Shown: piece by piece, positions 19,333-40,106 of the stretch | How positions within the stretch are numbered: position 1 is the stretch's first letter | How the letters are laid out: each line of letters opens with the position of its first letter | Source of the DNA: Microbacterium foliorum | Lineage (GTDB): Bacteria; Actinomycetota; Actinomycetes; Actinomycetales; Microbacteriaceae | Direction: 5' to 3' | Length of the DNA stretch: 64,000 bases | Assembly (NCBI RefSeq): GCF_003367705.1 | Contig: NZ_CP031425.1 | Span: 3,162,001-3,226,000, forward strand | Position numbers and translations under genes: made by a program | Notes under the pieces: generated by a model | Database searches by the model: none | Told to the model about the DNA's origin: nothing | Seen by the model: only the letters and a program-made list of their open reading frames with translations

Positions 19333-19361
19333 TGGACGGCACCTGTCATCACAGGTACACT
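19333..19361 (+). promoter_or_regulatory. promoter of the 19.4-kb catabolic operon
   Basis: A possible -35 (TGGACG, 19333-19338) and -10 (TACACT, 19356-19361) are 17 bases apart. The first operator fills the spacer and the second starts just past the -10. Steric repression is the obvious reading. Confidence 0.45.
19341..19356. promoter_or_regulatory. GntR/UTRA operator site 1
   Basis: ACCTGTCATCACAGGT: perfect 6-bp arms with a 4-base spacer. It belongs to the family also found at 19364, 28952, 37804 and 37834. Confidence 0.75.
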
Positions 19362-19363
19362 CG

Positions 19364-19379
19364 ACTTGTCATTACAGGT
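19364..19379. promoter_or_regulatory. GntR/UTRA operator site 2
   Basis: ACTTGTCATTACAGGT lies 23 bp downstream of site 1, about two helical turns away. It differs from the rc of the 28952 site at only two of 16 positions. Confidence 0.75.
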
Positions 19380-19414
19380 TGCGCAGCGCCGCAGCATCCG
19401 CACGAGGAGCATCG

Positions 19415-20005
19415 ATGCCCCAGTTCCACACGCCCCCGATCTCCCCGATGGCGATCTCGTTCGACGCCGAGGCGCTCACGCTGAGTCCGGAGGGCCCCAC
19501 GCTCACGCGCCGGATGTCCGATCTCGAGGGACTGTTCCTCGATGCGGATGCCTGGGCCGCCGCGTCCGCCGGCGAGAACCCCGTCGTCTACACCGTGGTC
19601 AGCTCGCCCGTCCCCGAGGTGGATCGCGAGCTGCCGCAGTCGATCACGACGATCATGCCGGGCGACACCTCGGGAGAGCTCTGGATGACCAAGGGCCACC
19701 AGCATCCGAACCACCAGGGCGAGATCTACCTCGCGCTGAAGGGCCGCGGGGGTCTGCTGATGTTCGACGGCGAGCGTACCGAGTGGCTCGACATGCTGCC
19801 GGGCACGATCGGCTACATCCCGCCGGGCTGGGCGCACCGCTCGGTCAACACGGGCGACGAGCCCTATGCGTTTCTCGCGGTCTACCCCGGCGGCGCCGGA
19901 CACGACTACGGGTGGGTCCTCGAACACGGGATGGGCGCACGCGCCTACCGCGCGAGCGAGGGCGTGGACCTGCGCGCTTATTCCGCGACCCCCTCGGCGG
20001 GATGA
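19415..20005 (+). CDS. cupin glucose-6-phosphate isomerase-like protein
   Basis: 196 residues, the archaeal-type (cupin) phosphoglucose isomerase family. The metal ligands are in GHQHPNHQGEIY (two His and Glu) and a further His in PPGWAHR. The cytoplasmic enzymes interconvert aldose and ketose 6-phosphates with Fe, Zn or Mn. CGAGGAG lies 6 bases before the ATG. As first gene of an operator-controlled operon ahead of a sugar kinase, it may act on another phosphosugar rather than glycolytic G6P. Confidence 0.8.
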   Translation: MPQFHTPPISPMAISFDAEALTLSPEGPTLTRRMSDLEGLFLDADAWAAASAGENPVVYTVVSSPVPEVDRELPQSITTIMPGDTSGELWMTKGHQHPNHQGEIYLALKGRGGLLMFDGERTEWLDMLPGTIGYIPPGWAHRSVNTGDEPYAFLAVYPGGAGHDYGWVLEHGMGARAYRASEGVDLRAYSATPSAG

Positions 20006-20015
20006 GGGTCGGGCC

Positions 20016-21560
20016 ATGCTGATCGCGCACGATCTCGGCACGACGGGGAACAAGGCGTCGCTGCACCACGACGACGGGCGCCTCGTCACCTCGGTCACCG
20101 TGCCCTACCCCGCTCACTTCGCCGCGGGCGGCATCGCCGAGCAGGACCCGGATCACTGGTGGGATGCCGTGGTCGCGGCCACCCGCCAGCTGCTCGACCG
20201 CGCCACCGTCGCACCGGAGACCATCGGCGGCCTCGTCGTCAGCGGCCAGATGATGGGCACGGTGCTCCTCGACGCCCACGGGCATCCGGTGCGGCCCGCG
20301 ATCATCTGGGCCGACACCCGCTCGGGCCCCCAGACCCGGGCCCTCGAGCAGAGCCTCGGCGCTCACGACGCGTACCGCGTGCTCGGCCACCGCCTGAACC
20401 CCACCTACTCGGTCGAGAAGATCATGTGGGTGCGCGACAACGAGCCCGACGTGTGGGCGCGGGTGCGCCACTTCTGCGTCGCGAAGGACTACATCGTCTA
20501 CCGGCTCACCGGCCGCCTCGCGACCGAGCGATCGGATGCCTCCGGCACGAACGCCTACGACCAGCAGGGTGGCACCTGGTCGACCGAGGTGCTCGCGGCC
20601 GCGGGACTCGACGCCGCGCTGTTCCCCGAGATCCTCGAATCGACGACCGTCGCCGGATCCCTCACGGCCGCGGCGGCGGATGCGCTCGGCCTCCCCGCCT
20701 CCGTCCGCGTCGTCATGGGCGGTGGCGACGGACCGCTCGCCGCCGTCGGCTCGGGCATCGTCGCCCCGGAGGACGGGGCGTACGTGTGCCTGGGCACCTC
20801 GTCGTGGATCTCGTTCGCGAGCCTCGCACCGCTGCACGACGCGCAGATGCGCACCATGACGTTCGACAACGTCGTGCCGGGGTCGTTCGTGCCGACGGCG
20901 ACCATGCAGGCGGGCGGCGCCTCGGTGCAGTGGATCTCCGAGGCGCTCTCCCCCGACCCCGCTCACCCCGACACCGCGCGGCTGACGGCCGAGGCCGGCG
21001 GCGACCTCGACACCGAGGATCTCTACTTCCTCCCCTACCTGCTGGGTGAGCGATCGCCCCTCTGGGACCCCCACGCCCGAGGGGCGTTCGTCGGGCTCGG
21101 ACGCCACCACACCCGCGCGCACCTCACCCGTGCGGTGCTCGAGGGGGTGGCGTACAACCTGCTCACCTGCATCGAGGCGTTCCGGGAGTCGGGCGCGACG
21201 ATCGAGCGCATCGACGCCGTCGGCGGCGGCGCCCAGAGCGACGCCTGGCTCGGCATCCTCGCCGACGTGTGGGGCGTGCCGATCCGCCGCCGCACCATCG
21301 TCGAAGAGGCGAACAGCCTCGGCGCGGCGGTCACGGGCGCCGTGGGACTCGGGCTCGCGGACTTCTCCGCGGCCCGCGCGCTCAGCGAGGTCACGGCGGA
21401 GTTCACCCCGGATGCCGGTCGGCACGCCGTGCACGCACAGCGGCACGCCCGTTTCACGGCGGCGTACGACGCCCTCGAACCCTGGTTCGCGACGGCCCCC
21501 ACGTCGGCCCCCGCGACGGCACCCGCGAACGCCGCCGCGAACGCCGCCCGGGAGAGCTGA
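20016..21560 (+). CDS. FGGY-family carbohydrate kinase
   Basis: 514 residues. The N-terminal FGGY domain begins HDLGTTGNKAS; IIWADTRSG is xylulokinase-like. The C-terminal domain has GERSPLWDPHARG and GGGAQSDAWLG, the FGGY signature region. It transfers phosphate from ATP to a pentulose or related ketose. The ATG at 20016 lies 10 bases past the preceding stop. The last 20 residues are an Ala/Pro/Thr tail built of ACCGC-like repeats. The LsrK alternative is considered, but the sequence reads nearer to xylulokinases. Confidence 0.85.
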   Translation: MLIAHDLGTTGNKASLHHDDGRLVTSVTVPYPAHFAAGGIAEQDPDHWWDAVVAATRQLLDRATVAPETIGGLVVSGQMMGTVLLDAHGHPVRPAIIWADTRSGPQTRALEQSLGAHDAYRVLGHRLNPTYSVEKIMWVRDNEPDVWARVRHFCVAKDYIVYRLTGRLATERSDASGTNAYDQQGGTWSTEVLAAAGLDAALFPEILESTTVAGSLTAAAADALGLPASVRVVMGGGDGPLAAVGSGIVAPEDGAYVCLGTSSWISFASLAPLHDAQMRTMTFDNVVPGSFVPTATMQAGGASVQWISEALSPDPAHPDTARLTAEAGGDLDTEDLYFLPYLLGERSPLWDPHARGAFVGLGRHHTRAHLTRAVLEGVAYNLLTCIEAFRESGATIERIDAVGGGAQSDAWLGILADVWGVPIRRRTIVEEANSLGAAVTGAVGLGLADFSAARALSEVTAEFTPDAGRHAVHAQRHARFTAAYDALEPWFATAPTSAPATAPANAAANAARES

Positions 21561-22516
21561 TGGGCGTCATCCTCGCGACCAGCCGCTCGTTCTCCGACGG
21601 CGACGTCGACCTCGTCGCCCTGGCGCACGCCGCGGGCCACGAGATCGTCCGCGGCCCCGCACACCACGGCCTGACCGAGCTCGCACCGCTGCTGGCCGCG
21701 GCGGACGGCTGGATCGCCGGCACCGGACCGGTGACCGACGACCATCTGGCCGCCGCACCGAACCTCAGAGTCATCGCGCGCTACGGCGTCGGCACCGAGG
21801 CGGTGGATCTCGATGCCGCGCTGCGCCGCGGCATCCCGGTCACCAACACCCCAGGAGCGAACGCGGATGCCGTCGCCGACCATGCCGTCGGACTCATGCT
21901 CGCGGCGCTGCGGCACATCTCCGACGGCGACCGTCGCGTGCGCCGCGGCGATTGGAGCGTGCGTCGAGGGCGGGAGCTCGGCGCGGCGACCGTCGGCATC
22001 GTCGGATTCGGAAGGATCGGGCAGGGTGTCGCCCGGCGGCTGAGCGGCTTCGGCGCCCGCATCCTCGCCACCGACCCGTTCCTGCCGGCCGCCGTGATCG
22101 CGGACGCGGGTGCCGAACCCGCCGACCTCGACGACCTGTTCCGCACCGCCGACGTCATCACGCTGCACGCCCCGGGCGGTCGAACGCTCGTCGGTGCGGC
22201 GCGGCTCGACGGCATCCGCCCCGGCCTGATCCTGGTGAACACCGCGCGCCCCGATCTGGTCGACGAGCCGGCGCTCGCCGAGGCGCTGCGCGACGGACGT
22301 CTCGGCGCGTACGCTGCCGACACGCTCGACGGCGACACCGCGGCGAGCGCGAGTCCGCTGCTCGCCGACGACCTCGCCGACCGTGTGACCGTGACCCCGC
22401 ACCTCGGCGCGCAGACGACCCAGGCCGTCGACAACATGGGCTCGATGTCACTCGATGACGTGCTCGCCGTGCTCGCGGGCCGCCCTCCCCTGCATCCCGT
22501 CTCCCCTCGACTCTGA
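21560..22516 (+). CDS. D-2-hydroxyacid dehydrogenase (NAD)
   Basis: 318 residues. NAD-binding GFGRIGQGVARRL is at about 142, the catalytic Arg in NTARPD (the usual R-G is R-P here), the acid in the DTLDGD region, and the His in PHLGAQT. The fold is that of phosphoglycerate dehydrogenases, reducing a 2-oxo acid or oxidising a 2-hydroxy acid. The start overlaps the kinase stop by one base (TGATG). Its presence points to a sugar acid or hydroxy acid in the pathway. Confidence 0.85.
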   Translation: MGVILATSRSFSDGDVDLVALAHAAGHEIVRGPAHHGLTELAPLLAAADGWIAGTGPVTDDHLAAAPNLRVIARYGVGTEAVDLDAALRRGIPVTNTPGANADAVADHAVGLMLAALRHISDGDRRVRRGDWSVRRGRELGAATVGIVGFGRIGQGVARRLSGFGARILATDPFLPAAVIADAGAEPADLDDLFRTADVITLHAPGGRTLVGAARLDGIRPGLILVNTARPDLVDEPALAEALRDGRLGAYAADTLDGDTAASASPLLADDLADRVTVTPHLGAQTTQAVDNMGSMSLDDVLAVLAGRPPLHPVSPRL

Positions 22517-22528
22517 AGGACCCAGGCA

Positions 22529-23473
22529 ATGACACTCACCGAGACTCCCGCCACCACGACCGGCGGCTACATGGGATTCATCGGCGTGAGCACCGGCTCA
22601 TCGTCGATCATGCGGGTGTTCCCGGCGTGGGCCGAGGTGCTGGGCCTGCCCACCGCGAACCTCGTCGGCCACGACCTGCCCATGGATGCGACGCCCGCAC
22701 AGTACGTCGCGATGGTCGAGCAGATCCGCGACGACCCCCACCATCGCGGCGCGCTCGTGACGACGCACAAGATGAACGTGTTCGCCGCCGCATCCGACCT
22801 CTTCGACGAGCTCGATCCGTTCGCCGTCTCGTGCGCCGAGATCTCCAGCATCTCGAAACGCGGCGACCGGCTGATCGGGAGGGCCAAGGATCCGCTCACG
22901 GTGGACCTCGCGCTGAACGACTTCCTGCCCGCCGATCATTTCGCCCGCACGGGGGCTGAGGTCGTGATCCTCGGCGCCGGGGGCTCGGGCACCGCCCTCA
23001 GCTGGGCGCTGGCGGAACGGGCGGATGCCCCGGCGAAGGTCACCGTGACCGCCCGCGACGATGACGCCCTGGCGCACCTGCGGGAGGTGCACCGCCAGCA
23101 CGGCACCCCCGAGGGGCTGCTCTCGTACGCCCGCACCGACACGGTGCAGGAGGCCGCCGCGATCGTCGCGTCGGCGCCCGCCGGGTCGCTGATCGTGAAC
23201 GCCACCGGCCTCGGCAAGGACCGCCCCGGCTCTCCACTGCCCGACGATGTCGTGTTCCCCGAGGGCGCCTGGGTGTGGGAGTTCAACTACCGCGGTTCGC
23301 TCGAGTTGCTGCACCAGGCCCGCGCGCAGCACGCAGAGCGCGGGCTGCACGTGGTCGACGGGTGGCGGTACTTCATCCACGGCTGGTCGCAGGTGGTCGC
23401 CGATGTCTTCGAGATCGACCTGACGCCCGAGATCGTCGAGCGGCTCGCCGAGGCCGCCGAATCGGCACGCTGA
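22529..23473 (+). CDS. shikimate dehydrogenase (AroE)-like oxidoreductase
   Basis: 314 residues. LVTTHKMNVF matches the AroE substrate-binding VTIPHK region including the catalytic Lys, and VVILGAGGSGTALSWAL is the nucleotide-binding loop. The end (HGWSQVVADVFEIDLTPE) differs from ordinary AroE. The position inside a sugar operon suggests a role outside aromatic synthesis, such as oxidising a polyol or cyclic intermediate. AAGGAC lies 8 bases before the ATG. Confidence 0.75.
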   Translation: MTLTETPATTTGGYMGFIGVSTGSSSIMRVFPAWAEVLGLPTANLVGHDLPMDATPAQYVAMVEQIRDDPHHRGALVTTHKMNVFAAASDLFDELDPFAVSCAEISSISKRGDRLIGRAKDPLTVDLALNDFLPADHFARTGAEVVILGAGGSGTALSWALAERADAPAKVTVTARDDDALAHLREVHRQHGTPEGLLSYARTDTVQEAAAIVASAPAGSLIVNATGLGKDRPGSPLPDDVVFPEGAWVWEFNYRGSLELLHQARAQHAERGLHVVDGWRYFIHGWSQVVADVFEIDLTPEIVERLAEAAESAR

Positions 23474-24483
23474 TGCCGCTCGTCCGCACGGTTCTCGGCG
23501 ACATCGACCCGCGGCGGCTCGGGCCGACGGACTATCACGAGCACCTCTTCCAGATCTCGCCGCTGCTGGTCGGCGACGAACTCGACGACGAAGACCGCTC
23601 GGGGCGCGAGACGGCGCTGCTGAGAGCCAGCGGGTTCACGGCGATGGTCGACGCGACGCCGTTCGGGCTGGGACGCGATCCCGAGGCGGTCGCACGCATC
23701 AGCGCCGGCACCGGGGTGCACGTCGTCGCCTCGACGGGCCGCCACCGCGAAGCGCACTACGGCGCAGACCACCCCACGCGCTCGGTGGATGCCGAGACGC
23801 TGTCGGCGCGCTTCATCCGCGAGGTCGACGAGGGGATGCCGCGCCACGACGACGATCCCGACGGCGTGCGCGCGCTCGGCCCCGACGACGCTCGGCCCGT
23901 GCGGGCAGGCCTTCTCAAGGCCGGAGTCGGCTACTGGAGCGTCAGTCCGTTCGAGCACACGACGCTGCTCGCGGTCGCGGCGGCGCAGCGGACGACGGGG
24001 GCGCCGGTGATGGTGCATCTGGAATTCTGCACCGCCGCGCATGAGGTGCTCGATCTGCTCGAGGGCGAGGGTGTGTCCGCCGACCGCGTGGTGCTCGCGC
24101 ACGCCGATCGCGACCCGGATCCCGGGCTGCACTCGTCCCTCGCCGAACGCGGCGCGTATCTGGGCTATGACGGCTTCGCCCGTCCGCGCACCCGCTCCGA
24201 TGCCGAGCTGCTCGCGCTGACCGCGCGGGTGGTCGAGTACGGCGCCGTCGACCGCATCGTGCTCGGCGGCGATGTCGCCCGCCGCACCCGGTACGTCTCG
24301 TACGGCGGAATGCCCGGCCTCGCCTACCTCGGCGAGCGCTACGTGCCTCGTCTGCGTTCGGCGATCGGCGACGACGCCGTCGAGCGGATGCTGGTCGCCA
24401 ACCCCGCCCGCCTGCTCACGCTGCTCTCCGCCCGAAGCCCCGCCCGGTGGCAAGCAGCGAAGCCCGAAGCCCCCGCCCGTTGA
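23473..24483 (+). CDS. phosphotriesterase-family lactonase/hydrolase
   Basis: 336 residues. The metal ligands follow the phosphotriesterase pattern: DYHEH, the carboxylated Lys in LLKAGVG, His in VMVHLEF, His in VLAHADRD and Asp in LGGDVAR. Relatives hydrolyse sugar lactones and phospho-lactones. The start overlaps the previous stop (TGATG). The last 15 or so residues are encoded by repeat-like sequence, and the TGA itself lies in the first unit of the 54-bp array, so the native C-terminus was probably replaced. Confidence 0.8.
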   Translation: MPLVRTVLGDIDPRRLGPTDYHEHLFQISPLLVGDELDDEDRSGRETALLRASGFTAMVDATPFGLGRDPEAVARISAGTGVHVVASTGRHREAHYGADHPTRSVDAETLSARFIREVDEGMPRHDDDPDGVRALGPDDARPVRAGLLKAGVGYWSVSPFEHTTLLAVAAAQRTTGAPVMVHLEFCTAAHEVLDLLEGEGVSADRVVLAHADRDPDPGLHSSLAERGAYLGYDGFARPRTRSDAELLALTARVVEYGAVDRIVLGGDVARRTRYVSYGGMPGLAYLGERYVPRLRSAIGDDAVERMLVANPARLLTLLSARSPARWQAAKPEAPAR

Positions 24484-24730
24484 GCGAGGAGCGAAGCCCC
24501 GAGACGAAACGCCCACCCCACTCGCCCCGCCCGTTGAGCGAGGAGCGAAGCCCCGAGACGAAACGCCCACCCCACTCGCCCCGCCCGTTGAGCGAGGAGC
24601 GAAGCCCCGAGACGAAACGCCCACCCCACTCGCCCCGCCCGTTGAGCGAGGAGCGAAGCCCCGAGACGAAACGCCCACCCCACTCGCCCCGCCCGTTGAG
24701 CGAGGAGCGAAGCCCCGAGACGAAACGCCG
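24478..24730. repeat. five REP-like units at exact 54-bp spacing
   Basis: Units start at 24478, 24532, 24586, 24640 and 24694. The first four 54-bp periods look identical and the fifth diverges after GAAACGCC. 54 is 18 codons, so every forward frame stays open or closed throughout. The unit is the same as in the 11318 array with a different linker. No spacer diversity, so it is not a CRISPR. Confidence 0.95.
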
Positions 24731-24754
24731 CACTACGAACCCCGAGGAGCCCGC

Positions 24755-25051
24755 ATGACCGAACCGACCATCCTGCACGCCGTGTTCACCGCCCGCCCGG
24801 GGAGGGGCGACGAGGTCGCCGTGCTGTTGCGCGACTTCGCCGATGTCGTCCGTGCCGAAGAGGGCAATGTCGTGTTCGATGCGACGCGCCTGGTCGACGA
24901 CCCCGACCGGTTCTTCGTCTACGAGGTGTACCGCGACGACGCGGCCTTCCAGGCGCACATCGCCGCTCCCGCCGGCGTTCCTTTCAACGAGGCGCTGCAG
25001 CAGCTCATCGTCGAGCCGTCGTCGATCCTCACCTTCCTCCGCCGCCTCTGA
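24755..25051 (+). CDS. ABM-domain protein (YgiN/LsrG type)
   Basis: 98 residues, a complete antibiotic-biosynthesis-monooxygenase ferredoxin-like fold. EEGNVVFDATR followed by FFVYEVYRDDAAFQAH is the family core. Members include quinol monooxygenase YgiN and the AI-2 isomerase LsrG. CGAGGAG lies 5 bases before the ATG. It is separated from the phosphotriesterase gene only by the 54-bp array, so it is probably the last gene of this operon. Confidence 0.82.
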   Translation: MTEPTILHAVFTARPGRGDEVAVLLRDFADVVRAEEGNVVFDATRLVDDPDRFFVYEVYRDDAAFQAHIAAPAGVPFNEALQQLIVEPSSILTFLRRL

Positions 25052-25063
25052 TCCGCCGCCTCT

Positions 25064-25121
25064 GATCCGGCATCCGCCCCCGCAGATCCGGCATCCGCCC
25101 CCGCAGATCCGGCATCCGCCC
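25064..25121. repeat. 21-bp tandem repeat after the ABM gene
   Basis: A 21-bp unit containing GATCCGGCATCCGCC is present 2.8 times (25064, 25085, 25106), starting 12 bases past the stop codon. Confidence 0.85.
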
Positions 25122-25132
25122 CGGACACGGAA

Positions 25133-25162
25133 GAAGCCCCCCGCCCGAAGGCGAGGGGCTTC
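25133..25162. terminator. bidirectional terminator between convergent operons
   Basis: GAAGCCCC pairs with GGGGCTTC, then one bulge, then CGCC with GGCG around a CGAA loop. It sits between the ABM gene (plus) and the binding-protein gene (minus). No long U tract follows, as is usual in GC-rich actinobacteria. Confidence 0.8.
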
Positions 25163-25178
25163 CGACGATCTGCTCAGG

Positions 25179-26180
25179 TCACTCGTAGAGGACCGCGGCG
25201 ATGTCCTTGTCCTCGAGGTTGGTGCTGTCGTACCAGTACGAACCGGTGTCGTAGAACTTCTCGACCGACTCGCCGTTGGCGGCGTCGTAGGCGGCCTGCA
25301 CGACCTGCGCGCCGATGCCGATCGGGTCCTGCGTGATCGCACCGGCCATGGTACCGTCCTTGATGGCGTTGATCTGGGCGGCGCCCGAGTCGAAGCCGAC
25401 GATCGTGATCTTGCCCTTCTCGAGACCGAGCTCGTTCACGGCGTTGACGACGCCGATGGCCGAGCCCTCGTTGGTGCCGTAGATGCCCTTGAGGTCGGGG
25501 TGCGCGGCGATCAGCGTCTTCGCGATGTCGGCCGACTTCAGGTGGTCGCCGTCGCCGTACTGGATGTCGACGATGTCGATGTCGGGGTAGTCGGCCTCGA
25601 TCTTGTCGACGAAGCCGTCGCGACGCTCGACACCGGTGGAGTTGATCTGCGAGTGGCCGACGATCGCGACCTCTCCCTTGCCGCCGATGAGCTCGGCCAT
25701 GTGCTCGGCCGCCAGCGCGCCGGCGACCTTGCTGTCGGTGGCCGAGAGGCTCAGGCCCACGTCGCCGTCGCAGGGGGCGTCGAAGTAGACGACCGGGATG
25801 TCCTTGGCCTTGGCCTGCTCGAGCGGGGCGACGCACGCCTCGGGGTCGAGGGCGGCGTAGGCGATGGCATCCGGGTTCTTGTCGATGGCGCTGGTGAGCA
25901 TCTCGAGCTGCTGCGCGATCTCGGTCTCGGCAGCGGGGCCTTCGAACGTGATGCGCACACCCAGCTCTTCGGCCTTGTCCTCGGCGCCCTTCTTCACGGC
26001 CTGCCAGAACTGGTGCTGGAAGCCCTTCGACACGAGCGCGATGTACATCTCGCCGTCGCCGCTGCCTCCGTCGCCGCTTCCTTCTTCGATGACGTCACCG
26101 CCGCCGCCTGCACAGCCTGCGAAGACGAGGGCCGATGCGGCCACGAGCGCCGCGAATGCGGTCTTCTTGCCGAATTTCAT
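25179..26180 (-). CDS. ribose-type ABC substrate-binding lipoprotein
   Basis: 333 residues, periplasmic-binding-protein type 1 (RbsB-like). The signal peptide ends in the lipobox VFAGC, followed by a Gly/Asp/Ser linker (about 24-43). VSKGFQHQFWQAVKKGAED opens the sugar-binding fold and GFDSGAAQ closes it. It is last in a three-gene transporter operon. Ligands of such proteins are pentoses, hexuloses, polyols or AI-2; this one cannot be assigned. Confidence 0.88.
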   Translation of the reverse strand: MKFGKKTAFAALVAASALVFAGCAGGGGDVIEEGSGDGGSGDGEMYIALVSKGFQHQFWQAVKKGAEDKAEELGVRITFEGPAAETEIAQQLEMLTSAIDKNPDAIAYAALDPEACVAPLEQAKAKDIPVVYFDAPCDGDVGLSLSATDSKVAGALAAEHMAELIGGKGEVAIVGHSQINSTGVERRDGFVDKIEADYPDIDIVDIQYGDGDHLKSADIAKTLIAAHPDLKGIYGTNEGSAIGVVNAVNELGLEKGKITIVGFDSGAAQINAIKDGTMAGAITQDPIGIGAQVVQAAYDAANGESVEKFYDTGSYWYDSTNLEDKDIAAVLYE

Positions 26181-26282: not shown

Positions 26283-27314
26283 TCAGGTGTGCTGGCGGTT
26301 GCGCAGCGAGTCGAGGAAGACGGCCAGGAGCACGACGACGCCGACGACGATGTTCTGCCACTCCGACTGGATCGACAGGATGCGCAGGCCGTTGACGAGC
26401 ACGCTCATGATGAGCGCACCGATCACGGTGCCGAGGATCGAGCCGCGTCCGCCGAGCAGCGAGGTTCCGCCGATGATCACCGCGGCGATCGCCTGCAGCT
26501 CGTAGCCGGTGCCGATCTGCGGCTGCGCGGAGTCGAGGCGGGCGGCGATGACGATGCCCGCGATCCCGGTGAACGCACCGGCGAACATGTAGATGAGGAT
26601 CGTCCAGCGGCGGGTGTTCACACCCGACAGGCGGGTGGCCTCCTCGTTGGATCCGATCGCGAACGTGTAGCGACCGAGCAGGGTCTTCGACAGCACCAGC
26701 CAGGCCACGATCGCGAGGGCGGCGGTGATCAGCACGGCATTCGGGATGCCGGGGATGATGACGCCGAGGGCGATCTTCTTGAAGTCGGGGGCCGAGGTCG
26801 AGAAGTAGATCGGTGCGACGTTGGAGATCACCAGGGCGAGACCGCCGGCGATCATCATCATCGCGAGGGTGGCGATGAACGGGGGCAGCCGGAGGAACGT
26901 GATGTTCACACCGTTGACCAGGCCCATCAGCACACCGGTGAGGACGCCGCCGATCACACCGACCCAGACCGGCAGGCCCAGGTTCGTGACGATGACGCCG
27001 GTCATCACGGCGCACAGCGCCATGCCGGTTCCGATCGACAGGTCGATGCCGCCGGTGATGATCACGAAGGTCGTGCCGAGGGCGAGGATGCCGATGACCG
27101 CCGTCGACAGCAGCACAGTGGCGATGTTGCTGAAGGTGAAGAAGTTGGGGCTGGCGATCGAGAAGAACAGCACCAGCACGATGAGCGTGCCGAATGCGAG
27201 CGACTGCTGGACCTGACGCTTCAGGAATCCGACGACGTCGCGCTTGTCGGTGTTCTCGTCGAGGGCGGTCTGGATGATCGTCGTCGTGGACGACCCGTTC
27301 TGCGGAGCGCTCAT
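26283..27314 (-). CDS. ribose-type ABC permease (RbsC-like)
   Basis: 343 residues with about eight to ten membrane helices and the RbsC motifs GGIDLSIGT and GGTSLLGGRGS. The ATG at 27314 shares one base with the ATPase stop (TGATG). A longer in-phase frame upstream is a shadow of the ATPase gene. The 102-base gap to the binding-protein gene contains two copies of a GGTGCTGCGTTCT-like sequence and nothing else obvious. Confidence 0.9.
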   Translation of the reverse strand: MSAPQNGSSTTTIIQTALDENTDKRDVVGFLKRQVQQSLAFGTLIVLVLFFSIASPNFFTFSNIATVLLSTAVIGILALGTTFVIITGGIDLSIGTGMALCAVMTGVIVTNLGLPVWVGVIGGVLTGVLMGLVNGVNITFLRLPPFIATLAMMMIAGGLALVISNVAPIYFSTSAPDFKKIALGVIIPGIPNAVLITAALAIVAWLVLSKTLLGRYTFAIGSNEEATRLSGVNTRRWTILIYMFAGAFTGIAGIVIAARLDSAQPQIGTGYELQAIAAVIIGGTSLLGGRGSILGTVIGALIMSVLVNGLRILSIQSEWQNIVVGVVVLLAVFLDSLRNRQHT

Positions 27315-28816
27315 CAGTCTTCCTCCCCGTGTGCTGCGAGTTGCATGATCTTCTCCTGGCTGGCGTCCTCGTTGCGGAGGGTGCCGGTGATGCGTCCGTT
27401 CGCGAAGACCGCGATGCGGTTCGCGACGCGGAGGATCTCCGGCAGTTCCGACGAGATGACGATGATGGATTTGCCCGCATCCGCGAGCTGCTGCATGAGG
27501 CGGTAGATCTCTTCTTTGGCGCCGACGTCGATGCCCCGGGTGGGCTCGTCGAAGATGAGGATGTCGCAGTCGCGCATCAGCCACCGGGCGATGACGACCT
27601 TCTGCTGGTTGCCTCCCGACAGCAGCTTCACGATCTGGTTCACCGAGGGCGTCTTGACCCGCAGCTGCTCGACGTACTCCTTGGTGCGGGTCTTGGCCTT
27701 GCTGTCGCCCATCCAGCCGATGCCGTTGGCGTAGGTGCCGAGCGAGGCGAGCACGGTGTTGAAGGTGACGTCCTGCTCGAGCATCAGCCCGAGCAGCTTG
27801 CGGTCCTCCGAGAGGTACCCGAGGCCGTGCTTGACGGCATCCGCGGGCTGCGTGATCTTGGCCGCACGTCCGCCGATCGTGATCTCGCCACCGTCGCTGC
27901 GGTCGGCGCCGATGATCGCGCGGGCGGTCTCGGTGCGCCCTGCCCCCATGAGCCCCGCGAAGCCCAGGATCTCTCCCCGGTGCAGCTGGAACGAGACGTC
28001 CTTGAGCAGGGTGCGGGTCGAGAGCCCCCGCACGTCGAGGACGATCGGGTCGTCGGCGTGCTCGCGGGCCGCGGGGCGCGTTCCTTCGTCGATCACGCGG
28101 CCGACCATCATCTCGATGATCTTGGGGATGCTGACCTCGGATCGGTCCAGTGATCCGATGTATGTGCCGTCTCGGAGCACCGTGACCCGGTCGGCGAGAC
28201 GTCGCAGCTCGTCCATGCGGTGCGAGATGTAGACGATGCCGGTGCCCGACGCCCGCAGCTGCTCGATCAGCACGAACAGCGTCTCGGTCTCGGAGTCGGT
28301 GAGCGCCGAGGTGGGCTCGTCCATGATCAGGACCTTGGCGTTGAAGGAGAGCGCCTTGGCGATCTCGACCATCTGCTGCTCGGCCACCGTGAGCTCGCCG
28401 ACGAGCTGCTTCGGGTTCAGCCCGATGCCGAGGCGCTGCAGCAGTTCGGCGGTCTGCGCGTTGAGCTTGCGCTCCGAGAGGAACGGACCGGTGGTCGGCT
28501 CGCGCCCCACGAAGATGTTCTGCGCCACGGTGAGATCGGGCATCAGGTTGAGTTCCTGGTGGATGATCGTGATCCCGAGCTGCTGGGCCTGCAGCGGGCT
28601 GGTGAGCTCCACCTCCGACCCCTCGAAGGTGATCGTGCCCTCGTCCTTGGTGTAGATGCCCGAGAGGATCTTCATCAGGGTGGACTTGCCTGCGCCGTTC
28701 TCGCCGACGAGCACGAGGACCTCTCCGGCGCGCACCTCGAGGTGCACCTGCTTGAGAGCCTGCACACCGGGGAATCCCTTGCTGATCCCGTCGACTCTGA
28801 GAATGGGGTCACTCAT
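27314..28816 (-). CDS. ribose-type ABC ATPase, two fused domains (RbsA-like)
   Basis: 500 residues, the usual length. Domain 1 has Walker A GENGAGKST, signature LTVAEQQ and Walker B LIMDEPT; domain 2 has the degenerate Walker A GLMGAGRT, signature LSGGNQQ and LIFDEPTRG. The ATG at 28816 gives the natural MSDPILRVDG start with AGGTGAG 5 bases away; an in-frame ATG 30 bases upstream is possible. First gene of the transporter operon. Confidence 0.9.
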   Translation of the reverse strand: MSDPILRVDGISKGFPGVQALKQVHLEVRAGEVLVLVGENGAGKSTLMKILSGIYTKDEGTITFEGSEVELTSPLQAQQLGITIIHQELNLMPDLTVAQNIFVGREPTTGPFLSERKLNAQTAELLQRLGIGLNPKQLVGELTVAEQQMVEIAKALSFNAKVLIMDEPTSALTDSETETLFVLIEQLRASGTGIVYISHRMDELRRLADRVTVLRDGTYIGSLDRSEVSIPKIIEMMVGRVIDEGTRPAAREHADDPIVLDVRGLSTRTLLKDVSFQLHRGEILGFAGLMGAGRTETARAIIGADRSDGGEITIGGRAAKITQPADAVKHGLGYLSEDRKLLGLMLEQDVTFNTVLASLGTYANGIGWMGDSKAKTRTKEYVEQLRVKTPSVNQIVKLLSGGNQQKVVIARWLMRDCDILIFDEPTRGIDVGAKEEIYRLMQQLADAGKSIIVISSELPEILRVANRIAVFANGRITGTLRNEDASQEKIMQLAAHGEED

Positions 28817-28851
28817 GTGCTCACCTGCTTCCTTGGAGGTCGTCATCCGCT

Positions 28852-28951: not shown

Positions 28952-28967
28952 GCCTGTAATAACAAGT
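28952..28967 (-). promoter_or_regulatory. GntR/UTRA operator site 3
   Basis: On the minus strand ACTTGTTATTACAGGC matches site 2 at 19364 in 14 of 16 positions. It lies 136 bases upstream of the ABC ATPase start, next to a TTGTCA that could be a -35, and links the transporter to the catabolic operon. Confidence 0.72.
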
Positions 28968-28990: not shown

Positions 28991-29860
28991 TCAGTGCAGC
29001 CGGATCGAATCGATGGCGACGAGCTTGTCGCGGATGTACGCGTTCGCGTGCGCTCCGAGCTCGACGTTGTCGGTCCACAGGTTGCGCCAGATCCCGAGCA
29101 TCCGGCTGAGGTCGGGAGCGACGACCGCCGACGAGAACGACTCGAACACGATCGGCCCGTCGTAGCCGATGCGCCCCAGCGCCTTGAAGAACGTGTCGAA
29201 GTCGACCGTGCCGGTGCCGAGATAGCCGCGATGGCTCTCGCCGATGTGCACGTAGCGCAGCGACGGCGCCGCATCGAGCACCGGCGCGAACATATCCGAC
29301 TCCTCGATGTTCATGTGGTACGTGTCGAGATGGATGCCGACGTTCGGCCGCTGCACCTCGTCGACGAAAGCGATCGCCTGACGCGCCGTGTTGAGGACGT
29401 TCGTCTCGTAGCGGTTGACGACCTCGAGCGACACCGAGACACCGCGCTCGGCGGCGTGGTCGGCGACCCGCGCGATCGTGGCACGACTGCTCGCCAAGCC
29501 CTCGGCGGTCACCGGGTCCATGTACTTCTTCATCGCGCTGTAGATCACGCCGCAGAAGTGCTGTCCACCGAGATCGGCGAGCACGTCGACCGCCTTGAGC
29601 AGCAGCGCCTCGCCGGCGGCGACGACCGCGGGATCCGCGCTGGTCACGTCGGTGGCCTCGGACAGCCCCAATGACGCGCTGACCGAGAGGTCGTGCTCTT
29701 CGAGAGCATCGCGGGCGGCGGCGACATCGAACGAGAACGGGTCCATGAGAGGGAACTCGATCAGGTCGAAACCCGCCTGCTTCGTCTTCTCGACCGCGAG
29801 GCGGATGCCGTCGGCATCGAAGTGTCCGGTCCAGACGAGCCCGTGGCATCCGATGTTCAT
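28991..29860 (-). CDS. ketose 3-epimerase (D-psicose/tagatose 3-epimerase type)
   Basis: 289 residues, xylose-isomerase-like TIM barrel. LEVVNRYETNVLNTA and HLDTYHMNIEE closely follow the D-psicose 3-epimerase pattern, supplying metal ligands Glu and Asp; the remaining ligands are in HIGESHRG and FESFSS. It would interconvert ketohexoses or ketopentoses at C3 without phosphate. GAGAGG lies 5 bases before the ATG. It is divergent from a LacI gene with two strong operators between them and lies upstream of the ABC operon on the same strand. Confidence 0.83.
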   Translation of the reverse strand: MNIGCHGLVWTGHFDADGIRLAVEKTKQAGFDLIEFPLMDPFSFDVAAARDALEEHDLSVSASLGLSEATDVTSADPAVVAAGEALLLKAVDVLADLGGQHFCGVIYSAMKKYMDPVTAEGLASSRATIARVADHAAERGVSVSLEVVNRYETNVLNTARQAIAFVDEVQRPNVGIHLDTYHMNIEESDMFAPVLDAAPSLRYVHIGESHRGYLGTGTVDFDTFFKALGRIGYDGPIVFESFSSAVVAPDLSRMLGIWRNLWTDNVELGAHANAYIRDKLVAIDSIRLH

Positions 29861-35222: not shown

Positions 35223-35226
35223 GTCT

Positions 35227-35255
35227 CGACCGCCCGGGTCGCACCCGGGCGGTCG
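35227..35255 (+). terminator. terminator after the FAH-SDR operon
   Basis: Perfect 13-base arms around a CGC loop, starting 4 bases after the stop codon. It could also help to end the convergent fuconolactonase transcript. Confidence 0.85.
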
Positions 35256-35271
35256 CTCCGACCGCGACCCC

Positions 35272-35313
35272 GCCTACGTGCGCCCGCCTACGTGCGCTCG
35301 CCTACGTGCGCTC
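35272..35313. repeat. 14-bp tandem repeat, three copies
   Basis: GCCTACGTGCGCTC (first copy ends CCC) occurs at 35272, 35286 and 35300. The third copy carries the TAG stop of the fuconolactonase gene, so earlier copies hold equivalent stops further out. Confidence 0.88.
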
Positions 35314-36282: not shown

Positions 36283-36300
36283 ACCCCCATCCTGCCGCAG

Positions 36301-36311
36301 ACATCCGATGA
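36301..36311. promoter_or_regulatory. fucose GntR operator 2 (ACATCCGATGA)
   Basis: Matches operator 1 in 10 of 11 positions and lies 6 bases upstream of the GntR -10 box, so it should cover both divergent promoters. Confidence 0.6.
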
Positions 36312-36316
36312 CTGGC

Positions 36317-36322
36317 TAGGAT
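36317..36322 (+). promoter_or_regulatory. -10 box of leaderless GntR gene
   Basis: TAGGAT lies exactly 6 bases before the ATG at 36329; there is no SD. Confidence 0.6.
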
Positions 36323-36328
36323 GACGCC

Positions 36329-37006
36329 ATGGCAGTGACTGACGAGGCGATCGAGAAGATCAAGGCGATGATCGTGTCGGGCGAGCTCGCGCCGGGCGAC
36401 CGGCTGCCTCCCGAGAAGGAGCTGTCGGAGCGCCTCGGCCTGTCGCGCAACTCGATGCGCGAAGCCGTGAAGGCTCTCGAGGTCATCCGCGTCCTCGACG
36501 TGCGGCGTGGCGACGGCACCTACGTGACGAGCCTCGAACCGCACCTGCTGCTCGAAGCGATCTCGTTCGTGGTCGACATGCACGATGACGACTCGATGCT
36601 CGAGATCTTCGCCGTCAGACGGATGCTGGAATCGCAGGCGACCGGCCTCGCCGCGACCCTCGGCAGCGACGAGGCGATCGCGGACCTCGAGAGCGAGGTC
36701 GGATCGATCGATGCCGGCGTCGGCATCGAGGAGCTCGTCGAGCACGACATCCGCTTTCACCGCGAGATCGTCGGCATGGCCGGAAACGCCTACCTCGCGA
36801 GCCTCATCGAGCACCTGAGCAGTCAGACCGTGCGGGCCCGGGTGTGGCGCGGGCTGACCGAGGCCGGGGCGGTCGAGCGCACTCTGTCGGAGCATCGCGC
36901 CATCGCCGAGGCCATCGGCCGGCACGACCCGGCGCTCGCCACGTCGCTCGCCACCGCGCACATCGCCGGCGTCGAGCGGTGGCTGCGCCAGGCGGCCTCC
37001 GCGTAG
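36329..37006 (+). CDS. GntR/FadR-type regulator of L-fucose catabolism
   Basis: 225 residues. The winged helix (about 4-70) contains LSERLGLSRNSMREAVKALE and GDGTYVTS; the FCD domain follows with the metal-ligand pattern in EHDIRFHREI and HRAIAEAI. By position and shared operators it should control itself, fuconolactonase, and the divergent fuconate operons. The inducer is likely L-fuconate or a later acid. Confidence 0.87.
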   Translation: MAVTDEAIEKIKAMIVSGELAPGDRLPPEKELSERLGLSRNSMREAVKALEVIRVLDVRRGDGTYVTSLEPHLLLEAISFVVDMHDDDSMLEIFAVRRMLESQATGLAATLGSDEAIADLESEVGSIDAGVGIEELVEHDIRFHREIVGMAGNAYLASLIEHLSSQTVRARVWRGLTEAGAVERTLSEHRAIAEAIGRHDPALATSLATAHIAGVERWLRQAASA

Positions 37007-37009
37007 GTC

Positions 37010-37107
37010 GTTCGGTTCTCAGCACAGATTCTTCCGCGGCGACCGCCGAACTGCGGAACCGCGCGGCTCCAGTCCGCCTGCGGACACGCCCCTGCTGAAT
37101 TGTGAAC
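37010..37107. repeat. inverted-end intergenic element, copy C
   Basis: The right end TGCTGAATTGTGAAC (37093-37107) is the exact complement of the 15-mer at 31091 and 42173. The left end (37010-37024) keeps GTTC and CAGCA but has diverged in the middle. The interior has stems such as GTCCGC/GCGGAC. It occupies the gap between two convergent genes. Confidence 0.7.
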
Positions 37108-37122
37108 GCGGCGACCGAGGGC

Positions 37123-37785
37123 TCAGGCTCCGAGCCGCGCCATCGCCGCGTCGAACTCGGCCGCCGACCCGTCGCTGACCTCGTGGAACATCATCTGCTC
37201 GATCACATCGGGCGCGGCGGTGAAGTACGGCACCCCGGCGAGACGCAGCCCGGTGATGTCGGCGGGCGAGCGCAGACTGGCGGCGAGCACGTCGGTGCCG
37301 CTGCCGGCGCAGACCTCCTGCATCCGGGCGATCATGGCGTCGCCGTCGATGCCGGCGTCCCGCATCCGGCCGAGGTAGGGGGCGATGTACCGCACGCCGA
37401 TCGACGAGCAGACCAGCGCCTGAGCGACGGAGTAGACGGCGGTGACGAGCACGCTGGCGCCGTCGGCGACGAGAGCGGATGCCGCGGCGAAGCCGTCGCG
37501 CGTGGCGGGGACCTTCACCGCCACGCGGTCTCCGAGCGCCCGGATCGTCTCGGCGTTGCGCAGCAGCGAGGCTGTGTCGCCGCCCCAGGTCTGGAAGAAG
37601 ATCTCTCGCGCGCCCTCGTCGGACCACCGTGCATACAGGTCGGGGATCTCGACGGCGGTGCGCCCGCCCCGCTCGAGGATCGTCGGGTTCGTCGTCACAC
37701 CATGGACGACGCCCGAGGTGAGGAGAGAGGCGACGCGGTCGACGTCCGCGCTGTCGACGTAGAGACGGGGGGCCGCGGCAGTCAT
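37123..37785 (-). CDS. transaldolase/fructose-6-phosphate aldolase-like protein
   Basis: 220 residues, the small (TalC/Fsa-type) class I aldolase family. The N-terminal YVDSADVD and GVTTNPTIL, and the Schiff-base Lys in VAVKVPAT, are family marks. Small members may act as F6P aldolases or on other ketose phosphates. AAGGAG lies 7 bases before the ATG at 37785. It is divergent from ribokinase-rbsD-GntR with operator site 4 between them, suggesting that it cleaves the phosphorylated sugar of this regulon. Confidence 0.85.
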   Translation of the reverse strand: MTAAAPRLYVDSADVDRVASLLTSGVVHGVTTNPTILERGGRTAVEIPDLYARWSDEGAREIFFQTWGGDTASLLRNAETIRALGDRVAVKVPATRDGFAAASALVADGASVLVTAVYSVAQALVCSSIGVRYIAPYLGRMRDAGIDGDAMIARMQEVCAGSGTDVLAASLRSPADITGLRLAGVPYFTAAPDVIEQMMFHEVSDGSAAEFDAAMARLGA

Positions 37786-37803
37786 CGGGTCTCCTTGTGC
37801 ACA

Positions 37804-37819
37804 ACCTGTCGTTACAGGT
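37804..37819. promoter_or_regulatory. GntR/UTRA operator site 4
   Basis: ACCTGTCGTTACAGGT, perfect 6-bp arms (7 bp if the flanking A and T are counted). It sits in the divergent promoter region of the aldolase and ribokinase genes. Confidence 0.78.
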
Positions 37820-37833
37820 TCGGATTCGGCTAA

Positions 37834-37843
37834 TGTAATGACA
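37834..37843. promoter_or_regulatory. GntR/UTRA operator site 5 (core only)
   Basis: TGTAATGACA is the reverse complement of the core TGTCATTACA of site 2. Flanking bases are less conserved. Its centre is 27 bp from that of site 4. Confidence 0.55.
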
Positions 37844-37892
37844 GCCGCGGAGGATGTCAAAGCCCCCCGCATCGACGACGATCAGGAGTGCC

Positions 37893-38843
37893 ATGACAGC
37901 CGCCACCTCGCCCGATCGCACCGGCGTCGTCATCGTCGGCAGTGTGACCGCAGACGTGACGACCTTCTCGACCCGGCTTCCGGCCCGAGGCGAGACCATC
38001 CTCGGCGACGAGTTCACCCTCATGCTCGGCGGCAAGGGCGCGAACCAGGCCGTCGCGGCCGGACGCTCGGGGGCGCGCACGAGCTTCGTCGGATGCGTGG
38101 GCGACGACCTCTTCCACGACCTCGTCGTCGACGGGCTGAGCGCGGCGGGCGTCGATCTCACCCATCTGCGCACCGTGCCCGGCCCCACAGGCATCGCGCA
38201 CATCCGCGTCGATGCATCGGCGCAGAACGACATCGTCATGGTGCCGCTCGCCAACGCGGCCCTGAGCACCGCGCAGATCGACGCGGCGCTGGCCGCCCTG
38301 GCGCCCACGACCTCGGTGCTGCTCACCCAGCTCGAGACGCCTTCGGCGCTGACCGCGCACATCACCGCCCGCGCGCGGGAGCACGGCATGACGGTCATCC
38401 TCGATCCGGCCCCCGCCGCCCCGCTCGACGACTCGGTGTGGGCGAACATCGACATCGTGACCCCGAACGAGACCGAGGCCACGGTGCTCAGCGGCGTCTC
38501 GGTCGTCGACGCGACCAGCGCCGAGCTGGCGGGCCGCTGGTTCCTCGACAGGGGTGTCGGCGCGGCCGTGATCACCCTCGCAGGACAGGGATCGTGCGTC
38601 GTCACGGCGGACGCCGCCTTCGTCGTCCCGCCCTTCCCCGTCGAGGCCGTCGACACCACCGCGGCCGGCGACGCTTACGCCGGGTACCTCGGCGCCGCGC
38701 TCGCGAACGGGTGGGCGCTGACCGATGCCGTTCGCCTGGCCACCGCCGCCGGCGCCCTCGCCGTCACCAAGCAGGGTGCGTCGCCGAGCCTGCCGCTGCG
38801 CGCCGAGGTCGATGCCTTCCTCGCCGCCCGCGACGCCCTCTGA
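37893..38843 (+). CDS. rbsK: ribokinase-like PfkB sugar kinase
   Basis: 316 residues. The ribokinase GGKGANQAVAAGR motif is at about 45-57, and the C-terminal PfkB signature DTTAAGDAYAGYLG carries the catalytic Asp. NETEA is the usual metal-site motif. CAGGAG lies 5 bases before the ATG. It heads an operon with rbsD and the GntR regulator. The substrate may be ribose or another furanose delivered by the ribose-type ABC importer 9 kb away. Confidence 0.86.
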   Translation: MTAATSPDRTGVVIVGSVTADVTTFSTRLPARGETILGDEFTLMLGGKGANQAVAAGRSGARTSFVGCVGDDLFHDLVVDGLSAAGVDLTHLRTVPGPTGIAHIRVDASAQNDIVMVPLANAALSTAQIDAALAALAPTTSVLLTQLETPSALTAHITARAREHGMTVILDPAPAAPLDDSVWANIDIVTPNETEATVLSGVSVVDATSAELAGRWFLDRGVGAAVITLAGQGSCVVTADAAFVVPPFPVEAVDTTAAGDAYAGYLGAALANGWALTDAVRLATAAGALAVTKQGASPSLPLRAEVDAFLAARDAL

Positions 38844-38896
38844 CCGCATCCGGCCGCCGGCCCCGACATCCGTCCGATCCCGCACGAGGAGACATC

Positions 38897-39301
38897 ATGC
38901 GAAAGACAGCGACGACCATCAACCCCGCCCTCTCGCGGGTCATCAGCGAGACCGGGCACACCGATCTGCTGGTCGTGACCGATGCGGGGCTGCCGATTCC
39001 GCCGGGATCCGAGCGCATCGATCTCGCGTATCGCCCGGGCGCACCGGCATTCCTCGACGTGCTCGACACGGTGCTCGCCGAGCTCGTCGTCGAGGGCGCG
39101 ACCGTCTCGCAGGAGGTCGCCGAGAAGAGCCCCGAGATTCTGGCGGCGCTGCGCGAGAGGTTCGCCGATCAGGATTTCGAGATCGCTCTGGTGCCCCACG
39201 TCGAGTTCAAGGCGCTCACGCACTCCGCGCGGGCGTTCGTGCGCTCGGGCGAGTTCACCCCCTACGCCAACGTGATCCTGCATGCGGGGGTCGCGTACTG
39301 A
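38897..39301 (+). CDS. rbsD: D-ribose pyranase (RbsD/FucU family)
   Basis: 134 residues, the RbsD length. His in SETGHTDLLVVTDAG is the catalytic residue and YANVILHAGVAY is the C-terminal signature. It converts beta-pyranose to furanose forms for the adjacent kinase. GAGGAG lies 7 bases before the ATG. The GntR gene starts 1 base after its stop. Confidence 0.9.
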   Translation: MRKTATTINPALSRVISETGHTDLLVVTDAGLPIPPGSERIDLAYRPGAPAFLDVLDTVLAELVVEGATVSQEVAEKSPEILAALRERFADQDFEIALVPHVEFKALTHSARAFVRSGEFTPYANVILHAGVAY

Positions 39302-39302
39302 C

Positions 39303-40106
39303 ATGGATGATGCGATCGACCGCCATTCCGCGGCACCCATGTACGACCAGCTGCGTCAGCTCATCGTCGAGGGCATCTCGCGCGATGGCCTGCAGCCGGG
39401 CGATCCGCTCCCGGGCGAGCATCGGCTCTGCGAGCGCTACGGCATCTCCCGCACCGTGGTGCGGCAGGCTCTGGCGCAGCTCGAGCACGAGGGGCTCGTC
39501 GAACGCGTCAAGGGCAAGGGCACGTTCGTGTCCCGCCCCCGCACCAGCGAGAGCCTGGTGCACACCCTGATCGGTCTCTACGACGACGTCGAGCGACGTG
39601 GCGGGCATGTGCACAGCGACGTGCTGCGCCACGAGCCCGCCGTCGCCGACGACGAGATCGCCGCCGCCCTCGACCTCGAGCCGGGCGCGCCCGTCGTCGT
39701 GCTCGATCGGCTGCGCCACGTCGACGGCGAGCCGTGGTCGCTCTCCACGACGTGGATGCCGGAGGCTGTCGGCCGCGCCACTCTCGACGTCGACCTGTCT
39801 GAGGCGTCTCTCTACCGACTCCTCGCCGACAACGACATCGTGGCGACGAGCGGGGTGCGCTCGGCCGAGGCCACCGTCGCGACCCACGATCAGGCGCAGC
39901 ATCTGGGCGTGAGCGCCGGCTCCGCCCTCCTGCGGCTGCGCAGCGTGAGCAGGTCGGCCGACGGCGTGCCGATCGAGTACTTCGTCGCGTATCACCGCGG
40001 CGACCGCTCACGTTTCGAGTTCCAGCTGCAGCAGGAGCAGTCGCAGGCGTCATTGCTGCACATCGACGGCGACGGCGGCGCCTCGCGAGCGGGCACGGTG
40101 ATCTGA
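39303..40106 (+). CDS. GntR/HutC-type regulator with UTRA domain
   Basis: 267 residues. The winged helix (about 10-75) includes LCERYGISRTVVRQALAQLE and GKGTFVS. The UTRA ligand domain (about 90-245) contains RLRHVDGEPWS and a PIEYFVAYHRGDRSRF end. UTRA domains bind sugars or sugar phosphates. Encoded in the ribokinase-rbsD operon behind operator sites 4 and 5, it is the best candidate for the protein that binds all five ACYTGT-N4-ACAGGT-like sites. Confidence 0.88.
   Translation: MDDAIDRHSAAPMYDQLRQLIVEGISRDGLQPGDPLPGEHRLCERYGISRTVVRQALAQLEHEGLVERVKGKGTFVSRPRTSESLVHTLIGLYDDVERRGGHVHSDVLRHEPAVADDEIAAALDLEPGAPVVVLDRLRHVDGEPWSLSTTWMPEAVGRATLDVDLSEASLYRLLADNDIVATSGVRSAEATVATHDQAQHLGVSAGSALLRLRSVSRSADGVPIEYFVAYHRGDRSRFEFQLQQEQSQASLLHIDGDGGASRAGTVI

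Follow-up and report, generated by a model that had tools for sequence, protein, structure and literature searches.

A candidate sugar regulon at three loci of Microbacterium foliorum, with a shared palindromic operator and a GntR/HutC-type regulator

Introduction

Among regulators with solved structures, DasR of Streptomyces and NagR (YvoA) of Bacillus are the closest relatives (E 7e-32 and 2e-28) of a GntR/HutC-type protein encoded at 39303..40106 (plus strand) in a 64,000-nucleotide stretch of the Microbacterium foliorum genome. This stretch, hereafter the window, covers positions 3,162,001-3,226,000 of a single-contig genome of 3,568,138 bp (NZ_CP031425.1), and coordinates below are window positions unless a locus or contig is named. 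In the NagR-DNA structure, Arg38 reads the guanine at operator position -5 and Arg48 reads the guanine at -4, and of these two arginines AraR of Bacillus retains just the counterpart of Arg48 (PMC4333415). The DasR operator is a palindrome of 16 bp, an Arg-[VLI]-Arg motif coordinates phosphate in the HutC UTRA domain, and HutC proteins without an equivalent of Arg38 might contact just one of the two operator guanines, according to the DasR paper (PMC4918961).

The 39303 protein has in common with DasR and NagR the winged helix and UTRA domain, a candidate palindromic operator with G at -4, the Arg48 equivalent and the Arg-x-Arg motif; it differs from them in that His40 replaces Arg38, T replaces G at -5, and the gene lies in a rare-sugar cluster and not among amino-sugar genes. 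Like AraR, it has the Arg48 equivalent without the Arg38 equivalent. AraR operators are of the TTGT-N4-ACAA type and its effector domain is of the LacI type, whereas the 39303 protein has a UTRA domain.

An earlier reading of the window, hereafter the sequence-only reading, had joined a catabolic operon, a ribose-type ATP-binding cassette (ABC) importer and a divergent aldolase/ribokinase pair into one sugar-responsive system through operators of the form ACYTGT-N4-ACAGGT, had named the UTRA-type GntR protein as the best candidate binder and had regarded an intervening fucose cluster as an interruption. Comparison of this genome with its relatives now makes it highly probable that the 39303 protein is a repressor that binds a 16-bp palindrome at three promoter regions and so controls three sugar loci and its own gene. 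The regulon itself is very likely; that it serves one sugar is less so, and the order of the pathway is a guess.

Results

The five elements of the sequence-only reading were all confirmed in position. By Pfam and by gene calls from a simple codon-position script, which performed badly on the AT-rich locus L083, they are intergenic and precede the catabolic operon, the importer and the divergent aldolase/ribokinase pair. The common form held for three of them: a tandem pair, ACCTGTCATCACAGGT at 19341..19356 and ACTTGTCATTACAGGT at 19364..19379 (both plus strand, the second 23 bp past the first and 35 bp 5' of the ATG of the GPI-type cupin gene), and ACCTGTCGTTACAGGT at 37804..37819 (plus strand), between the aldolase and ribokinase genes, are exact, whereas the importer operator ACTTGTTATTACAGGC at 28952..28967 (minus strand) has one mismatch (GCCTGT...) and the element at 37834 is a 10-bp core only, its 16-mer TAATGTAATGACAGCC missing 5 of the 12 consensus positions.

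The exact motif ACYTGTNNNNACARGT (ACYTGT-N4-ACARGT) occurs in 3 places genome-wide (19341, 19364 and 37804), every one inside the window, and the reversed control pattern in 0 places of the same genome; the motif is thus not equally common at unrelated genes. At two mismatches or fewer, ACYTGTNNNNACAGGT has 15 strand-wise matches in the window, compared with 1.89 on average and at most 7 in 100 dinucleotide shuffles of it. Genome-wide at one mismatch or fewer, the motif has 13 places and the reversed control 10, so that near-matches beyond the four window sites look like chance; among the inexact ones, the importer site at 28952 alone is remarkable, because of where it lies. A weight-matrix scan of the window at threshold 8 returned the four sites and one weak match at 25232 (score 8.0). 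The four score above 23, and 4 Mb of sequence simulated with a first-order Markov model never reached 20, although the matrix was derived from hand-picked sites and its scores are partly circular.

The nine other one-mismatch places in the genome were rejected as regulon members (matrix scores 10.0-15.7, six of the nine within called open reading frames (ORFs), and a count at the level of the reversed control), and three more core matches outside the regulon (two scoring 16.8 and 14.0, one below 8) were likewise not taken as members. Some of the rejected places outscore the weakest site counted below at a KDPG-type aldolase gene (13.2), and weak regulation may occur at some of them. A one-mismatch site in this genome, ACTTGTCGTCACGGGT at L006:1501 (C1:734701), overlaps the start of a gene that by eye resembles xylose isomerase and is flanked by an FGGY homolog and by a regulator-like gene in divergent orientation; the site was taken as chance.

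Comparison of the sites in related genomes showed that the motif tracks the regulator. Orthologs of the 39303 protein were found in 31 of 149 genomes of the genus (E 9e-175 to 3.6e-90); a genome was counted as regulator-positive at E 3.6e-90 or better, the next match standing at about 1e-40 (1.2e-40), and the tallies were made by hand. The exact motif was present in 30 of the 31 regulator-positive genomes versus 17 of the 118 regulator-negative ones (Fisher p 2.8e-18, kinship ignored). At least two exact copies were present in 29 of 31 versus 2 of 118, the 17 negative genomes mostly holding one; their occurrences resemble the background given by the reversed pattern, which was found in 26 of the 149 genomes (hand count). 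In a 150-genome sample of the family searched with the stricter ACYTGTNRTNACARGT, the ratio was 5 of 10 with the regulator (E 1e-60) versus 2 of 140 without it, and in the four genomes of other genera that hold both regulator and motif, the sole exact site lies 46-1913 bp from the regulator gene.

Within the genus, a site stands 5' of the FGGY gene in all 30 loci examined (of 33 matches), and the 37804 palindrome recurs at one mismatch or fewer in 43 of 44 loci (L014-L056 and L078). For the importer ATPase gene, 30 of 32 matches were examined, and a site precedes it in 29; the sole miss is G075, which lacks the regulator, so that all 29 regulator-positive loci carry the site.

In relatives, the regulon goes beyond the three loci originally proposed and also includes a KDPG-type aldolase gene (EDA; above the TIGR01182 cut-off) and a DkgA-like aldo/keto reductase gene (AKR; under the DkgA cut-off), both far from the main cluster. 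A site precedes EDA in 22 of 22 regulator-positive versus 0 of 8 regulator-negative loci (30 of 47 matches examined), and AKR in 14 of 19 versus 0 of 11 (30 of 134 matches examined). We regard these contrasts as the best evidence that the palindrome would serve the 39303 regulator. At E 1e-40, 29 of the 31 regulator-positive genomes gave an EDA match, and neither this genome nor G134, which has the closest regulator by identity, did so; as the reductase gene of this genome is also site-free, the regulon here comes down to three loci.

The same contrasts bear on whether the palindromes are operators of a specific regulator at all, or instead conserved promoter elements or chance. Chance near-matches are present in the genome, and the second core, TAATGTAATGACA at 37831..37843 (plus strand), is probably the -10 element of the ribokinase promoter overlapping a half-operator; the actinobacterial -10 box is TANNNT. 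The stretch TAATGTAATNACA, which includes the TGTAATGACA that the sequence-only reading placed at 37834, recurs in 42 of the 44 loci in the set L014-L056 and L078. It also recurs in 13 of 21 other loci (L057-L076 and L081), where the 16-mer before ribokinase is missing. However, the regulator-negative orthologs of EDA and AKR are site-free, as is the one such importer ortholog (0 of 1), and the Markov simulation did not reach the scores of the four window sites. We therefore give the promoter or chance explanation hardly any credence. Further 3' of the second core, a TGTCAAAG stretch at 37852-37859 recurs in most rows of the genus aldolase-ribokinase alignment.

The 39303 protein has a GntR domain (PF00392, 70.2 bits, cut-off 27) and a UTRA domain (PF07702, 121.8 bits, cut-off 23.8). 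The 25 matches listed, of 26, to curated HutC-type NCBIfam models (HutC, PhnF, TreR and others) fall below the cut-off, PhnF being the best (126.3 versus 156.8). In a phmmer alignment, Arg50 corresponds to NagR Arg48 and His40 to NagR Arg38. All 66 orthologs have Arg at residue 50; at residue 40, His was found in 62 of them and Leu in the other 4. The four window sites have T at -5 and G at -4. The same letters stand in each of the 62 distinct sites with a score of at least 15, which were picked by a matrix that favours TGT. This protein thus has no equivalent of the Arg38 that reads guanine at -5, unlike DasR and NagR, and the pair His40/Arg50 would fit an operator with T-5/G-4 by the published NagR contacts (PMC4333415). 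Nine homologs with Arg at position 40 (L086-L093 and L267) have no exact motif in their locus, L087 and L093 showing a one-mismatch match at distances of about 9.6 kb and 2.0 kb, respectively, from the regulator gene. The UTRA domain contains Arg136-Leu137-Arg138 (RLR in 65 and RIR in 1 of 66 loci).

Other proteins were considered as the binder. The genome encodes one other UTRA protein only (C1:2889288), which was rejected, as it lies beside PhnX-like (just under the cut-off) and HpnW-type (above the cut-off) genes with 0 sites in 14 kb. The binder could also be the FCD-type GntR protein (36329) or the LacI-type protein (30041) of the window, with the UTRA protein as a passenger. An FCD-type match does stand near the aldolase/ribokinase pair in many loci, often travelling with the cluster, which speaks against the 39303 protein. 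Against this, five loci (L051, L054, L073, L074 and L081) have a site at one mismatch or fewer and no FCD-type match in the retrieved locus DNA, the scope of that search; in G056, a UTRA regulator with the same SRTVVR stretch is accompanied by ACTTGTAATGACAGGT, with no match to the FCD or LacI protein of the window in 10 kb; and a Chloroflexi homolog of 38% identity has two imperfect sites (two mismatches each) 48 and 198 bp upstream. That either of the two window proteins is the binder is thus very improbable, and the choice of the 39303 protein as candidate binder in the sequence-only reading is supported by co-occurrence and by residues 40 and 50.

Several side observations concern these proteins. 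In several loci that have no fucose-gene match, a match to the FCD-type GntR (36329-37006) is still found next to the aldolase/ribokinase pair. The G056 regulator (L135:4232-5166; 36-38% identical) faces a different sugar ABC importer, with its palindrome between the two, and perhaps has a local regulon of its own that uses this type of operator. The Chloroflexi sites, at L083:9539 and L083:9689 of a metagenome-assembled genome, are TGTAAT(T/A)ACA palindromes 5' of the regulator gene, whose neighbours are epimerase, ribokinase, RbsD, dehydrogenase and FGGY homologs.

The pieces of the regulon are found together elsewhere. The loci compared came from a set of 80 kept out of 197 relatives. In 19 loci of compact form (L058-L061, L063-L076 and L081), 16 of them from other genera (among them Cryobacterium, Mycetocola, Agrococcus and Arthrobacter) and 3 from unclassified Microbacteriaceae, the regulator gene lies 5' of the GPI-cupin/FGGY operon and is co-directional with it; in L060 and L067 an insertion of about 1.8-1.9 kb separates the two. 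A site between regulator and FGGY gene is present in all 19 (17 at one mismatch or fewer and two, by the weight matrix, at two mismatches); in L073 it is located after the cupin gene. EDA lies between the 2-hydroxyacid dehydrogenase and shikimate-dehydrogenase-like genes in 6 of 7 annotated compact loci and in G043 and G086, which argues that regulator, kinase operon and EDA were ancestrally together; EDA would then have left the operon in Microbacterium, where it carries an operator of its own. Thus, in other genera regulator and kinase operon are compact, whereas in the lineage of the window the pieces lie apart, the importer has its own site, and no EDA was found in this strain.

The importer is encoded on the minus strand by genes for an AlsB-like substrate-binding protein (25179..26180; Peripla_BP_4), a permease (26283..27314; BPD_transp_2) and an ATPase (27314..28846; RbsA-like, below that cut-off), with assignments from Pfam and, for the binding protein and ATPase, NCBIfam. 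The ATPase may instead start at 28816, as the alignments of most genus orthologs begin no earlier than residues 2-10. Between importer and aldolase lie a ketose 3-epimerase gene of the D-allulose 3-epimerase type (28991..29860, minus strand), the LacI-type regulator gene, the FCD-type GntR gene and a set of fucose-route genes, namely those for an aldo/keto reductase, an enolase-superfamily dehydratase (ENOL), an FAH-type hydrolase (FAH), a short-chain dehydrogenase and a fuconolactonase-like amidohydrolase (AMH). This set fits the oxidative L-fucose route. No site was found at the fucose genes in the weight-matrix scan of the window at threshold 8.

An alternative is a two-system model, in which the importer works chiefly for L-fucose oxidation and has been borrowed by the GntR regulon, the two being overlapping systems for related sugars. 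Of the compact clusters, seven have at least 300 bp of sequence upstream of the ATPase gene, and none of the seven has an importer site (best score 6.0); G043, whose importer locus is outside the 30 examined above, has the regulator and yet a site-free importer. Both points weigh against a single regulon. In G075, with no match to the regulator at E 1e-30 and none to FGGY at E 1e-150, importer and fucose genes are still adjacent, without a site, and L139 has the co-directional order ENOL, AKR, small ORF, epimerase, [site], importer. Since sites are missing in all seven testable clusters, the importer operator seems to be lineage-specific, found in the lineage of the window and some neighbours (L039, L049, L054, L056 and G086). 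The missing sites, together with G075, lend real weight to the alternative that the importer is shared. On the other side, the importer has its site in every regulator-positive genus locus examined, and in 12 of the 19 compact loci one 20-kb stretch holds both the importer genes and the kinase operon, six of these loci (L058, L059, L063, L064, L073 and L076) having no ENOL, FAH or AMH match. We consider the two-system model a real possibility, if not one that we expect to hold. The fucose genes lie next to the compact cluster in 7 of the 19 loci (ENOL matches in L069-L072, L074, L075 and L081) and are old, though site-free, neighbours of the regulon. The earlier picture of one system interrupted by a fucose cluster therefore stands in its linking of the three loci and is too simple in its notion of interruption.

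A few further features were seen around the importer. In L069, L071, L072, L074, L081 and L269, where the operator is absent, an imperfect element lies about 64-79 bp 5' of the ATPase gene; this recurring ACAT-N4-6-TACAASY-like element, for example ACATTCAGATACAACT, may be a degenerate operator or the site of another regulator. Beside the importer and fucose genes of G075 (L273), an ORF resembles by eye the RbsD/FucU-family ORF tested in L137. The epimerase gene ends the fucose gene run in L139, which may hint at the natural role of the industrial D-allulose 3-epimerase family.

The other two loci are organized as follows. The catabolic operon (all genes on the plus strand) begins with the GPI-type cupin gene (19415..20005; PF06560) and continues with genes for an FGGY kinase, xylulokinase-like (20016..21560), a protein of the D-isomer 2-hydroxyacid dehydrogenase family (21560..22516, by family match), a shikimate-dehydrogenase-like oxidoreductase (22529..23473; under NCBIfam cut-offs, with no Pfam match at E 0.001) and a phosphotriesterase-family protein (23473..24483; PF02126); a small ABM-domain protein is encoded at 24755..25051 (plus strand; Pfam). 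A longer kinase ORF begins at 19866, and the ORF with the N-terminal extension scores 400.3 bits, above the TIGR01312 XylB cut-off of 380.25, which does not imply sugar specificity. At the third locus, by Pfam, an FSA/transaldolase-type aldolase gene (37123..37785, minus strand) diverges from a ribokinase gene of the PfkB family (37893..38843, plus strand; alternative ORF start 37854), followed on the plus strand by the gene for an RbsD/FucU-type mutarotase (38897..39301) and by the regulator gene, the third gene downstream of the 37804 operator.

The nearest solved chain to the phosphotriesterase-family protein is 3pnz (E 6.4e-40, residues 1-317 of 336), which we take to be Lmo2620, a lactonase of phosphorylated sugars; the substrates of this enzyme type were reportedly described by Xiang et al. 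in 2012. The nearest NCBIfam model, that of phospho-furanose lactonase, gave 114 bits against a cut-off of 630, so the substrate of the 3PNZ-type enzyme is not transferable to this protein. The 28991 epimerase matches the D-allulose 3-epimerase chains 5zfs (presumably an Arthrobacter enzyme) and 8yeb over all 289 residues (E about 9e-156); unlike the regulon genes, it is not behind a GntR site in the window. D-Allulose/D-allose, sugars of the D-arabinose/L-fucose type and ribose were weighed as substrates. The hints, namely the allulose-type epimerase, the AlsB-like binding protein, RbsD with ribokinase, and, next to the G043 cluster, a protein whose C-terminal domain is that of L-fucose isomerase, point in differing directions, and we therefore claim no substrate. 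The last of these proteins (L269:372-2006; PF02952) is accompanied by a LacI-type regulator, and ORFs in L066 and L073 start similarly by eye.

Discussion

In the mechanism that we propose, the 39303 protein, presumably as a dimer, would bind ACYTGT-N(A/G)TN-ACARGT and repress three units: the operon of GPI-cupin, FGGY kinase, 2-hydroxyacid dehydrogenase, shikimate-dehydrogenase-like and phosphotriesterase-like genes; the ribose-type ABC importer; and the divergent aldolase gene with the ribokinase-rbsD-gntR operon, which would entail autoregulation. A phosphorylated sugar from the pathway would release it. We infer repression (and not activation), the dimer and the phosphosugar effector from the GntR/HutC family.

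Several observations weigh against this reading. G030 has a site at its FGGY gene and no regulator was found there; this genome is only 77% complete, so its regulator may merely be unsequenced. No exact motif was found in 5 of the 10 regulator-positive genomes of the family sample, and G043, with a regulator 59% identical, has two imperfect sites only. Five of 19 regulator-positive AKR loci, including that of this genome, are without a site. Nine genus loci of UTRA paralogs of 31-38% identity have a good site beside one only (G056). In addition, related genomes are not independent samples. Even so, the concurrence of motif and regulator, the site-free orthologs where the regulator is missing and the joining of the loci in other genera support the three-locus regulon.

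More tentatively, and with rather less than even confidence, we suggest a phosphorylative rare-sugar pathway, previously undescribed, in Microbacteriaceae and relatives. In it, an FGGY kinase would act first, the shikimate-dehydrogenase-like protein and 2-hydroxyacid dehydrogenase would oxidize the product to a phospholactone, a phosphotriesterase-fold lactonase would open this, and a KDPG-type aldolase would cleave the result, all under one HutC repressor whose changed pair of residues would recognize TG half-sites in place of GG ones.

In the open-licence literature, searched by title and the start of the abstract, we did not find the operator type, and likewise neither the pathway nor the regulator. 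Local repression of such a kind is ordinary, and the surprise is moderate. What the window offers is a well-defined candidate regulon of a GntR/HutC repressor whose operator type was not found in that literature, and thereby a natural test of the statement in PMC4918961 on HutC proteins without an Arg38 equivalent. The regulon also links an importer to a kinase, a lactonase-like enzyme and a KDPG-type aldolase, which makes the search for the substrate of these so far unassigned genes a narrower one.

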